NCBI GenBank assembly: GCA_958295955.1
Contig: OY282420.1
Span: 2,556,435-2,620,434, forward strand
Direction: 5' to 3'
DNA from: an uncultured Bryobacterales bacterium
Lineage (GTDB): Bacteria; Acidobacteriota; Terriglobia; Bryobacterales; UBA6623
DNA: 64,000 nt
The notes under the pieces are model-generated. The model was not told the DNA's origin. It made no database searches and saw only the letters and a program-made list of their open reading frames with translations. Positions 30,786 to 36,424 of this stretch are shown in pieces (position 1 is the stretch's first letter; each line of letters starts with the position of its first letter). A program made the translations under genes and the position numbers.

Positions 30786-33146
30786 CTACGTGCGAACCCG
30801 CAGGAACAGATACGCGCCGCCGAGCGCGAAGATCAGGCAGGGCGCCCAGGCCGCCATCGGCGGCGTAAGCTGCCCGCTGCGGCCCAGTTGCTCGGCCAGC
30901 GCGTTCAGCGCGTAATACCCGATCGTCAAAGCGAAGCTGAAGGCGACGGGCGCCAGGGCGCCCTGCCGGCCGGTCAGCATCGCGAACGGCACCGCCAGCA
31001 GCGCCATGCCGAAAGCGAACAACGGAAAAGCAAGTTTCTTGTGCAGGCGGACTTGCAGCCGGATCGTATCGAAGCCGCTTTGCGTCAGATCGACGATGTA
31101 CGCCTGGAGTTGCCGCCAGTTCATCTGCTGGTCGTGGCGGTCCTCTTTCAGGAAGTAATTGGGCGGTTCCACGATGTCGGGGAATTCCCGGCTGTCGAAC
31201 TGTTCGAAGCGGGTGGGATGAATGCCGTCCAACTCGCGCAGCCAACCCCGCTCGAACACCCAGACGCCTCGAGCGGCGCTCCAGTAAGCGCGTTCGGCGG
31301 CGATGTGCCGCCGCAACTCGAAGGGTTCCTCGCGCAAGTCGTAAACGCTGATGCCGGAGAACGTCATGGCCTTCGAATCGAACGCGCGGTGGTAGAAAAT
31401 GCGGTTGCGCAGGCCGAACGTCCACTGGCGGTCGGGCCGCAAGTACGTGCGCGCCGGGCGGCCCTTGATTTCATCGCGGATGGCGTCCTGGCGGCGGTTC
31501 GTTTGCGGCAGATAGTAGTGGTCGAGCGCGAAAAGGCCGCCGCTCAACAGTGAGGCGAAAACCAGCACCGGCGAAGCCAGCCTGTAGAGACTCACTCCCG
31601 AAGCGCGAAATGCCGTCAACTCATGGCGCTTGGCCAGCAGTCCGAAACAAATCAGCGTCGCCACCATTACCGCCAGCGGCGCCGTGTTGTAGATCAGGAA
31701 CGGCGTCAGGTAATAGATGTAGGGAACGAACCGGCCCAGCTTGTCGCGGGCGAGCATATCCGTCAGCAACTCGAAAAAGCTGAAGACGAACCAGATGGCG
31801 ATGAACGCCGCGGTGAAGACCGCCAGATGGAACAGGAAGCTGCGCAGCACATAGCGGTCGACGATGCGCAGGGCGGGGTCGCTGAACGACCCGGACGCCG
31901 GCGAGCCGTTATTGTTCGCCGCCGCCGCGGCGCCGTTCCGCTCCCGCCTGCGGGCAAGCGTTTTCAGGAACCGGTCGCGTACCGCCGACAACCGGGTCGC
32001 GGCGACTGCGCTCCAGTCCCGGCGGTTCGGCGCATCGAGGCGCGCGAGCAAGACGAGGCCGGCCAGGCCGAACACTGCGTTGGCGGCCCAGGCCGCAAAG
32101 ATCGGGCCGACCGCGCCCTGCTTGGCCAGCGCCGTTCCGGCCAACTGCATCATCCAATAGACGAAAACCAGCGCGAGCGCCGTCAAGACCCCGCTGGAGC
32201 GGCCCGACCGGCGGCTCGAAACGGCCAGCGGTATGCCCGCCAGCGGCAATACCAGACAGGCCAGCGGAAGCGCCAGACGTTGCTGCAATTGAATGCCGGC
32301 CTGCGGATCCGCTTCCGTCCTTGCCGCCTCGGCCAACTCCGGCGTCGCCATTTTGTCGTACCGCTTCGCTCCCGGATCGAAACGGCTCGGGCGCGCTTCC
32401 AGCACCTGATCGGTGCTCTCCGAGCGGAAACCGTGGTACTGCTGCGGGTCGAACGACTGCTCGTAGGTCGTCGTCATCGGGAACCGCACCTGAATGCGGT
32501 TCTGCTCGGGCCGGGGAATGACGAAAGCCTCCGAGGCCAGCGTGATGCGCGGCCCGTCCACCGCTGCGTTGACGCCGGCGAAAGAACCCCGGCGCTCGGG
32601 GGCGCGCATGTCGGCGAGGAAGATGCCTTTCCAGTGAATGCCCTCGCCGGGGAGCACGTCTTGCACGCGAATGACGCGGTCGGGAAAGTCTTCGATGAAA
32701 ACGCGCGGCCTGACTTCAGCGCCCGCCAACGGCACGCGGAAGGATTCGGCGATGCGCGCCTGTTCCCGCAGCGACCACGGCGTGAGCCACAGCGTCGTGG
32801 CCGCGCAGACCGCCGTCGCCAGAACCGCGAAAACTCCGACCGGGCGGACGATGCGCAGTCCGGGAATTCCGGCCGAGCGCATCGCCACGATCTCGTTGTC
32901 GGCCGACAGACGCCCCAGCGCGAGCAGAATCCCCACCAGGACGCCGATCGGAATCGTAAACGGAAACGACTGCGGAATCGTCAAGGCGAACAGGCGCAGG
33001 ACATCCGCAGCGGCGGCGCCCGGGCCGACCAGCAAGGCCATTACAGGGCCGACGCTCTGCAGAAAGAGCGCCAGCGTGAAGAGCAGCGCGCCGATCAGCG
33101 ACGCGGCGACGACTTCACGGAAGACGTATCGGTAGAGAATGCTCAC
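30786..33146 (-). CDS. LptF-LptG fusion permease
   Basis: This membrane protein of about 786 residues joins two YjgP/YjgQ-type permease halves. The first (ILYRYVFREVVAASLIGALL onward) has three N-terminal helices, a periplasmic jellyroll-like region and three more helices ending near 400. After a basic linker (AVRDRFLKTLARRRERNG) the second half starts RIVDRYVLRSFLFHLAVF and repeats the layout. LptF and LptG form the inner-membrane transporter that, with the LptB ATPase, extracts lipopolysaccharide. Here one chain could supply both. I use the GTG at 33146, matching the conserved N-terminus; an ATG 18 codons upstream gives a Cys/Asn-rich extension. The 3' end nearly meets arsS, convergently. 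Confidence 0.85.
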   Translation of the reverse strand: MSILYRYVFREVVAASLIGALLFTLALFLQSVGPVMALLVGPGAAAADVLRLFALTIPQSFPFTIPIGVLVGILLALGRLSADNEIVAMRSAGIPGLRIVRPVGVFAVLATAVCAATTLWLTPWSLREQARIAESFRVPLAGAEVRPRVFIEDFPDRVIRVQDVLPGEGIHWKGIFLADMRAPERRGSFAGVNAAVDGPRITLASEAFVIPRPEQNRIQVRFPMTTTYEQSFDPQQYHGFRSESTDQVLEARPSRFDPGAKRYDKMATPELAEAARTEADPQAGIQLQQRLALPLACLVLPLAGIPLAVSSRRSGRSSGVLTALALVFVYWMMQLAGTALAKQGAVGPIFAAWAANAVFGLAGLVLLARLDAPNRRDWSAVAATRLSAVRDRFLKTLARRRERNGAAAAANNNGSPASGSFSDPALRIVDRYVLRSFLFHLAVFTAAFIAIWFVFSFFELLTDMLARDKLGRFVPYIYYLTPFLIYNTAPLAVMVATLICFGLLAKRHELTAFRASGVSLYRLASPVLVFASLLSGGLFALDHYYLPQTNRRQDAIRDEIKGRPARTYLRPDRQWTFGLRNRIFYHRAFDSKAMTFSGISVYDLREEPFELRRHIAAERAYWSAARGVWVFERGWLRELDGIHPTRFEQFDSREFPDIVEPPNYFLKEDRHDQQMNWRQLQAYIVDLTQSGFDTIRLQVRLHKKLAFPLFAFGMALLAVPFAMLTGRQGALAPVAFSFALTIGYYALNALAEQLGRSGQLTPPMAAWAPCLIFALGGAYLFLRVRT

Positions 33147-33207
33147 GGCGTCGCCGGCGCAGGAATTTTTATTATTGCAATGCGGCCGGCAGGCGTTCAC
33201 GCCGATA

Positions 33208-33236
33208 TTGACCGCGCGCAGCCGCTTGGTTACGAT
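33208..33236 (+). promoter_or_regulatory. Promoter of tRNA-Glu (and of the SLC13 gene)
   Basis: TTGACC at 33208-33213, a 17-base spacer and TACGAT at 33231-33236 form a good housekeeping-type promoter. Transcription would begin near 33243, just before the tRNA at 33250. Confidence 0.65.
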
Positions 33237-33249
33237 AAAGGCTATCCGA

Positions 33250-33324
33250 GGCGCTATCGTCTAAGGGTTAGGACAGGGCCCTCTCAAGGCTCAGATCGGG
33301 GTTCGAATCCCCGTAGCGCTACCA
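33250..33324 (+). tRNA. tRNA-Glu (anticodon CTC)
   Basis: The cloverleaf is complete. The acceptor arms GGCGCTA and TAGCGCT pair with one G-U. The D arm is GTCT/GGAC. The anticodon stem GGGCC/GGCTC encloses the loop CTCTCAA, giving anticodon CTC. The T arm is CGGGG-TTCGAAT-CCCCG, and discriminator A plus CCA are encoded. The final A of CCA is the first base of the ATG of the SLC13 gene. Confidence 0.95.
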
Positions 33325-34868
33325 TGCTTTCGGGCGCATCCAAGCGACGCAACATCGGGCTCGCCGTCGGCCTGATCGGGTTCGCGGCGCTGCTGCTGAT
33401 GCCGCAGCCCGGCGGGATGGAGCCGGTTGCCCAACGAACCGCCGCTGTCGCCTTCCTGATGGCCGCCTGGTGGATCAGCGAAGCCGCCCACATCGCGGTG
33501 ACGGCGCTGCTGCCGCTCGTGCTGTTTCCGGCGCTCGACATCCTGTCCAGCCGCGCCGTGTCGGCGCACTACGCGAATCACATCATTTTCCTGTTCCTCG
33601 GCGGTTTCATCATCGCCATCGCCATGGAAAAGTGGAACCTTCACCGCCGCATCGCCCTGGCCACGATCGCGCGCGTCGGCTCGGAGCCGCATTCTCTGCT
33701 GTTGGGTTTCATGGTTGCCGCGGCGTTCCTTTCGATGTGGATTTCGAACACCGCCACCACGATGATGATGCTGCCGATCGCGATGGCCGTGGTCAATCAG
33801 TTGGCCGGCATGGCGGAAATCGCGGGTGTCGATACGCAGCAGGAAGCAGAGTCGCTGACGCGGGAAAATTTCGGGCTCGTGCTGCTGCTGGGCATCGCCT
33901 ACGCGGCGAGCGTCGGCGGGATCGGAACGATCGTCGGCTCGCCGACGACGGTCGCGTTCCTGGGCTTCGCCTCGGAGCATTTCCCCGATCAGCCCCCCAT
34001 CGGCTTTGTTCCCTGGTCGGTCGTCTGCATCCCGATCGTAGTGGTTTTTCTGCCGCTGACGTGGGTCTATCTGTGCCGCTTCGGCGCCGAACTGCCTCTT
34101 TCCGCGATCAAGTTCCGCGGCAGCCAAAGCGTCATTCGAGACGAGTTGAAGAAGCTCGGCCGCATAACGCCCGCCGAGCGTCTGGTGCTGATGGTTTCGG
34201 CGGCGACGGCGCTGCTGTGGATCACGCGCAGCCCGCTCGATCTCGAGTGGTTCACTGTGCCGGGATGGTCCGGGCTGCTTCTAGATTCCTCTGACGTTCA
34301 TGACTCGACGGTCGCCGTAGGGATGGCCGTGCTGCTCTTTCTGCTGCCCGCAGATCTGCTCGGGCGGGGTTCGGCGGACGGTTTCGCGATGGACTGGAAG
34401 ACGGCGGCGGAGCGCATGCCCTGGGGGATCGTGTTTCTCATCGGCGGCGGGTTTGCGCTCGCCGCGGGCATCTCCGGAAGCGGCTTGGCGGCCTGGATCG
34501 GCTCGCAACTGGGCGCGCTGAAGGGCACGCCCGTATGGCTCTTGGTGCTCGTTACCTGCCTGCTGTCGACGGCGCTCACCGAGGCGACGTCGAATGTGGC
34601 GACCGTCTTGATGTTTTCGCCGATCGTCGCCGCGATGGCCGCAGAGGTCGGCGTTCATCCCTATCTGTTGCTCATACCGGTGGCGGTCATGGCCTCGTTC
34701 GCTTTCACGCTTCCGGTGGCGACGCCGCCGAATGCGATCGTTTTCTCCAGCGGCTGGATCACCATTCCCAAGATGTTCCGCGCCGGAATCGCGCTCGACT
34801 TGCTCGGCTTGGTCGTGGCGCCCGCGATGGTTTATTTGCTCGGCGCAAGGATATTCGGCTTCGGCTGA
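33324..34868 (+). CDS. SLC13/DASS family anion transporter
   Basis: This 514-residue inner-membrane carrier belongs to the divalent anion:sodium symporter family (dicarboxylates, citrate or sulfate). The two sodium and substrate-binding hairpins are recognisable: MWISNTATTMMMLPIAMAVV near residue 145, and LTEATSNVATVLMFSPI near 425, both keeping the SN(T/V) motif. About eleven hydrophobic helices are visible. The start codon overlaps the CCA end of tRNA-Glu, with no separate promoter or ribosome site visible. An ATG at residue 26 falls after the first helix and is less likely. Either tRNA readthrough or processing produces its message. Confidence 0.87.
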   Translation: MLSGASKRRNIGLAVGLIGFAALLLMPQPGGMEPVAQRTAAVAFLMAAWWISEAAHIAVTALLPLVLFPALDILSSRAVSAHYANHIIFLFLGGFIIAIAMEKWNLHRRIALATIARVGSEPHSLLLGFMVAAAFLSMWISNTATTMMMLPIAMAVVNQLAGMAEIAGVDTQQEAESLTRENFGLVLLLGIAYAASVGGIGTIVGSPTTVAFLGFASEHFPDQPPIGFVPWSVVCIPIVVVFLPLTWVYLCRFGAELPLSAIKFRGSQSVIRDELKKLGRITPAERLVLMVSAATALLWITRSPLDLEWFTVPGWSGLLLDSSDVHDSTVAVGMAVLLFLLPADLLGRGSADGFAMDWKTAAERMPWGIVFLIGGGFALAAGISGSGLAAWIGSQLGALKGTPVWLLVLVTCLLSTALTEATSNVATVLMFSPIVAAMAAEVGVHPYLLLIPVAVMASFAFTLPVATPPNAIVFSSGWITIPKMFRAGIALDLLGLVVAPAMVYLLGARIFGFG

Positions 34869-34972: not shown

Positions 34973-36424
34973 ATGCCGACTGAGCGAATTGCCGGACAAG
35001 AGACGCCGCCGCGGGCCGCTCCGCCGCTGATTGTCGATGTGGACGGCTCGCTGGTCAGCGGCGATCTGCTGATCGAGGGCGCGGCGCGGCTGCTCGCGGT
35101 CTCGCCGCTCAGCCTGTTCGCCCTGCCTTTCCGCTTGGCGCGCGGCCGCGCCGCGCTGAAGCGCTGGATTGCCGAGGCCGTTCCAATGCCGCCGGAGACG
35201 CTGGCGCTGAACCCGGCCGTGCTGGACGAGATTGCCTCCGCAAAAGCCGCGGGGCGCGCGGTCTGGCTGGCCTCCGCCTCCGACGAGCTCGCCGTCGCTC
35301 CGCTGGCCGCGGCGGTGGGCGCCGCGGGCTGTTTCGCCTCGGACGGGCGCACCAATCTGGCGGGCCGGGCCAAGGCCGCCGCGCTGGTCGAGCGGTTTGG
35401 CGAGGGCGGGTTCGATTACATCGGCAACGAGCGGCGCGATCTGGCCGTCTGGAAACGGGCGCGGCGGGCCGTCGGGGTCAATCTCTCGGCGGGTCTCGCG
35501 CGGGAAGTGCGGGCGCTGGACGGCGAGGCCCGCTTCCTGCCCGGTCTCGGCGGCCGTCCGCTCGACTATCTGCGGGCCTTGCGCCCGCACCAATGGGTCA
35601 AGAACACGCTCGTATTCGCGCCCCTCATCGCCGCGCACGAGACGCGCCCGGAGTCCTATTCGACGGCTGTCGGGGCGTTCGCGGCGCTGACCGCCTGCGC
35701 GTCGGGCGCCTATCTGCTGAACGATTTGCTCGATCTTCCCCACGACCGCCGGCACAAGAGCAAGCGCCGTCGTCCGCCGGCCGCGGGCAAGACGTCCCTG
35801 CTGCCGACGGCCGGCATGGGCGCGGCGCTGGCGGCGGGCGGGCTCGCCCTGGCTTTCGCGCTGCCCGCCGCGGCGGGGCTTTGCGTCTTGCTCTACCTGA
35901 GCGGGACGCTGGCCTATTCGCTGTTGCTGAAACGCAAGACCTTCATCGACGTCATCACGCTTGCCGCGCTCTATGCGGTCCGCATCCTGACCGGCGCGGC
36001 GGCGGCTTCGGTTGCGCTGTCGCCCTGGTTCCTTGCCTTTTCCCTCTTCCTTTTCCTCGCTCTGGCCATCGTCAAGCGCCAAAGCGAATTGTATGCGCTG
36101 CGCGAGTCCGGCCGGTCCGCGTCCGCAGGGCGCGCTTATTTCGCCGAGGATCTCGCCGCGCTGACGGCTCTCGGCGTGGCCGCCGGCATCGCCTCGGTAG
36201 TGATCCTCACTCTCTACATCCAGGATCCGAAAGTGAACGGACTCTATGCCCGACCGGAATTCCTGTGGCTGCTCTGTCCGCTGCTGCTCTACTGGCTGGG
36301 GCGCTTGGCGCTGCTCGCCAATCGCGGGAAGGTCAACGAAGATCCGCTGGTGTTCGCGATGGGCGACAGGACGAGTTGGCTGACCGGCGTCGCGCTCCTG
36401 GCCGTGCTGGCCGCCGCGTTGTGA
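34973..36424 (+). CDS. HAD-UbiA fusion: polyprenyl-phosphate phosphoribosyltransferase, probable phosphatase
   Basis: This 483-residue protein joins an N-terminal HAD domain (LIVDVDGSLVSGDLL, residues 18-190) to a UbiA-type intramembrane prenyltransferase (200-483). The UbiA part has LRPHQWVKNTLVFAPL, the Asp-rich NDLLDLPHDRRHKSKRR and YSLLLKRKTFIDVITLA, matching decaprenyl-phosphate 5-phosphoribosyltransferase. That enzyme joins phosphoribosyl pyrophosphate to polyprenyl phosphate, the first committed step to polyprenyl-phospho-arabinofuranose. A phosphatase must then remove the 5-phosphate, and the fused HAD domain is the obvious candidate (inference). The next gene encodes the DprE1-like oxidase, which acts next in the pathway. 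Confidence 0.85.
   Translation: MPTERIAGQETPPRAAPPLIVDVDGSLVSGDLLIEGAARLLAVSPLSLFALPFRLARGRAALKRWIAEAVPMPPETLALNPAVLDEIASAKAAGRAVWLASASDELAVAPLAAAVGAAGCFASDGRTNLAGRAKAAALVERFGEGGFDYIGNERRDLAVWKRARRAVGVNLSAGLAREVRALDGEARFLPGLGGRPLDYLRALRPHQWVKNTLVFAPLIAAHETRPESYSTAVGAFAALTACASGAYLLNDLLDLPHDRRHKSKRRRPPAAGKTSLLPTAGMGAALAAGGLALAFALPAAAGLCVLLYLSGTLAYSLLLKRKTFIDVITLAALYAVRILTGAAAASVALSPWFLAFSLFLFLALAIVKRQSELYALRESGRSASAGRAYFAEDLAALTALGVAAGIASVVILTLYIQDPKVNGLYARPEFLWLLCPLLLYWLGRLALLANRGKVNEDPLVFAMGDRTSWLTGVALLAVLAAAL

Follow-up and report, generated by a model that had tools for sequence, protein, structure and literature searches.

The window analysed here, a stretch of 64,000 nucleotides from an uncultured Bryobacterales bacterium, contains a single tRNA gene, which ARAGORN identifies as tRNA-Glu (CTC) at positions 33250–33324 on the plus strand. 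The Rfam model RF00005 matches at 33250–33321 (60.5 bits, E = 6.6e-12), and the cloverleaf, the anticodon CTC and an encoded CCA are all present. This CCA occupies 33322–33324, and an ATG at 33324–33326 opens a long reading frame on the same strand, the junction reading ...GTAGCGCTA-CC-ATG-CTT... Thus, the tRNA ends and the start codon begins on the same base, A33324, as claimed in a preliminary description of this DNA. Its observation that no alternative start precedes the first membrane helix also holds, since the nearest in-frame ATG, GTG or TTG codons besides 33324 are two ATGs, one upstream at 33180 and one downstream at 33399 (residue 26). Likewise, in agreement with the absence of an evident ribosome-binding site noted there, no Shine-Dalgarno (SD) core was found in the 20 nt before ATG 33324. 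Judged from the sequence, both the tRNA and the ORF look intact, and the overlap looks real.

The ORF at 33324–34868 (plus strand, 514 aa) is predicted to encode a transporter of the SLC13/DASS family. PF00939 covers residues 12–499 (E = 1.1e-66), the NCBIfam model TIGR00785 'dass' scores 219.7 bits against a cut-off of 198.6, and the curated SLC13/DASS family cut-offs are passed along the whole protein. The solved relatives by sequence include the Na+/citrate cotransporter NaCT/SLC13A5, which matches best, and VcINDY; the nearest named matches lie on Acidobacteria and Bryobacterales MAG contigs (58–64% identity). On the other side of the tRNA, a divergent gene at 30786–33200 (minus strand) contains two PF03739 (LptF_LptG) stretches in one ORF of 804 aa, apparently an LptF-LptG fusion. 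Downstream of the transporter, an ORF at 34973–36424 (plus strand) matches UbiA prenyltransferase in its C-terminal part (residues 219–446), and the approximately 200 residues before this part are presumably HAD-like.

Orthologs of the transporter were found in all 17 other family genomes searched, with best matches of 58–68% identity. In the sister genus g6, all 11 genomes carry a tRNA-Glu(CTC) upstream of the transporter on the same strand, with 0 or 1 mismatch to the window tRNA over 75 nt. In these 11 relatives, 75–99 nt separate the CCA from the aligned ATG, compared with -1 in the window; locus L040 has three candidate ATGs, at 41, 50 and 77. Five of the other six family relatives have the transporter with no tRNA in the locus, and the sixth (L038) is uninformative on this point with only about 150 nt of upstream sequence. 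Since the five have enough flank, the pair is, as far as these loci tell, not obligatory. The number of residues before a conserved WW motif is 48 in the window and in L043 and 46–49 across the relatives. Because this N-terminal length falls within the range of the relatives, the ancestral start codon has most likely been kept in the window. Of the 11 relatives, 8 also have the LptF/LptG-domain gene upstream of the tRNA, and in the other three no match was found within the available flank. With the pair in 11/11 genomes and this gene in 8/11, the order LptF/LptG-domain gene, tRNA, transporter is old.

Since the relatives have the same tRNA and the same gene at a distance, the comparison identifies the overlap as a lineage-specific loss of the spacer on a conserved tRNA-transporter pair. 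In the simplest history a deletion would have taken the spacer exactly up to the start codon and no further. What can be read directly from these genomes is the overlap, the orthology of the start, the conservation of the pair and the absence of the spacer. Of the comparison of junctions suggested in the preliminary description, the orthology of the start codon stands, whereas the overlap itself is missing in 11/11 relatives. Conservation of the overlap within the family is ruled out by the spacers of these relatives; it occurs with the transporter in one genome only, the sole g1 genome among 18 family genomes.

If translation began downstream, at ATG 33399 (residue 26) or at a near-cognate codon, the overlap would be meaningless. 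Suitable codons exist, with ATGs at 33399 and 33417 and near-cognate codons at 33354–33396, and the match to the closest solved structure starts only at residue 21. However, the 11 relatives keep a homologous N-terminus of the length given above, and the Pfam match starts from residue 12, so that we regard a downstream start as very unlikely. This includes the start at residue 26, which the preliminary description had named as the observation that would contradict it: such a start is unlikely, because most of the first membrane helix, which is kept by the orthologs, would be lost. Translation entering from upstream through the tRNA was also considered, as the frame is open over 31623–34868, and was rejected. 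The upstream part of this ORF is mostly antisense to the LptF/LptG-domain gene, its GC1/2/3 values of 0.83/0.50/0.65 compare with 0.62/0.48/0.84 in the transporter, and there is no ATG, GTG or TTG from the tRNA promoter to 33324.

This promoter is sigma-70-like (TTGACC-17-TACGAT, 33208–33236, plus strand), ends 13 nt before the tRNA and is the one site found against a shuffle mean of 0.1; the earlier statement that no promoter is evident has to be dropped accordingly. Further upstream, a hairpin with a T run at 33148–33160 resembles a terminator (plus strand; 1 found, 0.4 expected from shuffles). A TANNNT hexamer ends 12–13 nt before the tRNA in all 12 loci with the pair, which are related and not independent, and TANNNT at such a distance holds for 0.4% of all positions in these loci. 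The hexamer is preceded by a TGN extension in 11 of the 12; a script scoring whole promoters chose another hexamer in 5 of all 12 loci. In the spacers of the 11 relatives, the best promoter-like match reaches only 3–6 of 12, and an SD core before the transporter is absent in 10 and present in 1. Crude scans revealed no terminator-like site after tRNA-Glu. By these consensus scans, the tRNA and the transporter are adjacent genes on the same strand with neither promoter nor terminator between them. Because a -10-like hexamer precedes the tRNA in 12/12 loci and no good promoter was found in the 11 spacers, co-transcription of the tRNA and the transporter is probably ancestral. In the relatives, the transporter is probably transcribed from the tRNA promoter and translated without an SD sequence, and the window would merely have lost the spacer.

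SD-less starts seem to be common here: of 30 genes of the window picked by a script, only 9 carry an SD core in the usual position, and the corresponding count in a background stretch is 2 of 30. As the script takes every frame to begin at its earliest possible start, true SD use may be higher. For Acidobacteriia, the accessible part of one study lists 45 in the SD percentage column of its table (PMC10783764), and the available text of another gives an average of 13.3% predicted leaderless genes in Acidobacteria (3/3 genomes; PMC3160421).

The window resembles leaderless bacterial mRNAs in that the start codon has neither an SD sequence nor a leader of its own, and differs from them in that the tRNA could be the leader. 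A truly leaderless transporter mRNA starting at A33324 would need a promoter inside the tRNA gene. This would resolve the conflict between the two products, since the AUG would stand at or near the 5' end, and leaderless genes are predicted in the phylum by the excerpted study cited above (PMC3160421). The scan did not find a promoter firing at the start codon: the best match inside the tRNA gene reaches 6 of 12 and its -10 element overlaps the ATG. Since the spacers of the relatives also lack a good promoter-like match, we consider a promoter within the tRNA distinctly unlikely.

All 45 tRNA genes of the source genome have an encoded CCA. Precursors of this kind are cut downstream and then trimmed back to the CCA. 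The genome encodes RNase PH (349 bits) as well as RNase E/G, which scores over its cut-off. For RNase Z, no match in the genome exceeded the cut-off, and three remained below it, the best with 25.3 bits versus 292.95. Of the three loci (L257, L258 and L259), the two with listed ORFs, L257 and L259, presumably encode other proteins of the metallo-beta-lactamase fold. All 14 controls match the RNase Z profile but just 9 pass the cut-off, and for this reason the absence of RNase Z is likely, not certain. Given an encoded CCA, RNase PH together with RNase E/G, and no spacer, ordinary 3' trimming would remove the transporter start. Trimming would stop on the A of the AUG, and one molecule could not be both a mature tRNA and a full mRNA. 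The enzymes found thus fit the pathway implied by the earlier claim that 3' processing destroys the start codon.

The reading that we favour, with a probability of about 0.55, is that a single transcription unit, driven by the tRNA promoter, comprises tRNA-Glu(CTC) and the transporter. This unit would have been inherited, and this lineage would have lost the spacer of 75–99 nt, so that the CCA now runs into the ATG. ATG 33324 would be the start codon, used without an SD sequence. Each transcript would either be trimmed to the tRNA, with removal of the AUG, or be translated with the tRNA as mRNA leader, and a minor untrimmed fraction would be enough for a transporter. Co-transcription, the either/or fate and translation of the untrimmed RNA are what we infer in this proposal. 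In the predicted fold of the joint RNA, the cloverleaf forms and the AUG is mostly unpaired (0.95, 0.84, 0.69); after RNase P cleavage at the 5' end, the accessibility of the AUG is predicted to drop to 0.88, 0.64 and 0.41. A ribosome on an AUG located one base past the folded acceptor stem may need this stem to be opened. As the genome has a second tRNA-Glu (TTC), the cell could tolerate losing some tRNA-Glu(CTC).

An endonuclease might instead cut after the discriminator base or between the Cs of the CCA, which would yield an mRNA beginning with 5'-CCAUG or 5'-CAUG and a tRNA repaired by the CCA-adding enzyme. The lack of an RNase Z over cut-off and the presence of a PF01743 nucleotidyltransferase in the genome are consistent with this pathway; however, PF01743 to our understanding spans poly(A) polymerases as well. 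A precedent comes from Propionibacterium acnes, which likewise has no obvious RNase Z and has tRNAs with an encoded CCA (about half of them, compared with 45/45 here), and in which an encoded CCA is cut between its Cs, the repair of such tRNAs being a suggestion of the same paper (PMC3848588, available part). The leaderless genes predicted at an average of 13.3% in the three acidobacterial genomes (PMC3160421, excerpt) would also suit a start so close to the 5' end. Against this, P. acnes belongs to a different phylum, and even there the endonuclease has not been named. An overlap of a tRNA with a start codon is not described for it in the accessible text (PMC3848588). Taken together, a cut at the CCA is possible but rather doubtful.

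The preliminary description went further and proposed a tie-in of tRNA maturation and transporter expression. As an evolved trait, this is not supported, given the gap in 11/11 relatives and a phylum sample that shows no enrichment of such junctions. Among 396 genomes sampled from the phylum, 180 matched a pattern of a T-arm followed by CCATG, and 101 of 396 matched a control pattern with the ATG nine bases after the CCA; more CCATG matches are expected, since this pattern fixes two bases after the CCA and the control fixes three. The CCATG set, which leaves out the window's own junction, consists of 110 loci, 30 by search and 80 hand-picked among the matches listed; two of the latter were chosen for their tRNA-Glu end, one of them (L178) being without a confirmed CCATG junction. 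ARAGORN yielded 101 distinct junctions, or 99 after two short contig-end frames were dropped. The control set of 90 loci (30 by search, 60 hand-picked) gave 81 junctions, of which two were dropped to leave 79. An ORF of at least 100 aa is opened at 18/99 CCATG junctions versus 20/79 at the control spacing (Fisher p = 0.27), although several of the 18 probably start later or are spurious (L223 spans masked bases) and the control has spurious frames, too. With a coding-like GC pattern, the counts are 9/99 and 6/79 (p = 0.79). Enrichment of CCATG starts is thus rejected for this partial sample of the phylum, which contains neither an excess nor a clear avoidance of CCA/ATG overlaps. We consider it unlikely that tRNA maturation acts as a switch for the transporter, whose output would report unprocessed pre-tRNA-Glu, or that one cut at the CCA produces a near-leaderless mRNA together with the tRNA.

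At least one of the 18 frames looks like a true gene start. In L142 (172–1503), the CCA/ATG of a tRNA-Leu(CAG) opens a gene for a radical SAM/B12-binding protein, and the next possible start is residue 72. A close match to this protein (E = 2.4e-127 or better) was found in 14 of 30 genomes searched, the rest giving weak or no matches, and tRNA-Leu(CAG) is present in all 14 loci (L266–L279). The junction is readable in 11 of these, with the overlap in two (G590 and G650) and its absence in nine. G590 and G650 are two species with radical SAM proteins of 86% identity; as both keep the overlap, the arrangement seems able to persist across a species split. The likeness to the window is close, as a single A again serves the CCA and the ATG, in a pair that is old and has a variable gap; the differences are another tRNA, another gene and an overlap in two species versus one genome. 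In a scan of viral contigs with the radical SAM protein, no relative was found.

The tRNA-Leu(CAG) pair also bears on the question of whether the spacer is missing only through an error of assembly or sequencing. The overlap with the transporter is confined to one genome and known from assembled sequence alone, as would be the case for such an artefact. However, the genome of 4.58 Mb is assembled in 3 contigs and 95.5% complete, both genes are intact across the join, and the unrelated pair has the same geometry in two separate genomes. An error is therefore improbable in the extreme.

Bacterial tRNA-mRNA co-transcripts exist, for example E. coli thrU-tyrU-glyT-thrT-tufB. The window resembles this type in that a tRNA is followed by a protein gene on the same strand with no separate promoter or terminator evident. 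Such co-transcripts usually contain a spacer in which cleavage can separate the tRNA from the mRNA, whereas the window has no spacer and one base is shared. Within the part of the literature on tRNA/start-codon overlap and tRNA-mRNA transcripts that was covered, no bacterial CCA/ATG overlap was found; the papers that did turn up included some on plants and many on mitochondria. In a human-gut bacterium, too, an ORF overlaps a tRNA gene, and it has spectral support from metaproteomics; neither the manner of this overlap nor a shared CCA/ATG is described for it in the accessible text (PMC8967034). According to the same text, one gene finder missed this ORF, probably due to the tRNA overlap (PMC8967034), and for this reason overlaps like CCA/ATG may be under-annotated.

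The overlap would make the production of the tRNA and of the protein compete. Such competing fates follow soundly from the anatomy of the locus, whereas the overlap as a regulatory device is unsupported. If there is one shared transcript, the locus would offer a clean natural test of how a cell allots one RNA to the mutually exclusive roles of tRNA and mRNA, and of whether a ribosome can initiate a single base beyond a folded tRNA. The spacer-bearing relatives and the tRNA-Leu/radical-SAM pair would be ready-made comparisons. If there is no shared transcript, the arrangement is simply tight packing.

Some further junctions were observed in the survey. In L177 (G327, another family), a tRNA-Glu(CTC) with the same 3' end has CCATG before a frame of 581 aa, which may start at residue 19 and is not SLC13 by Pfam. 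In the source genome itself (L179, C1:2898878–2901904), a tRNA-Lys and a tRNA-Gly have CCATG, and the frames close after 14 and 8 codons, respectively. Finally, in three genomes (L219, L289 and L290) a tRNA-Gln is closely followed by a gene resembling ribose-phosphate pyrophosphokinase, by Pfam for L219 only and by N-terminal resemblance for L289 and L290. Here the ATG is at -1 in L219, whose gene might start later, or at +9 nt relative to the tRNA, and this arrangement is possibly a further tRNA-mRNA pair.
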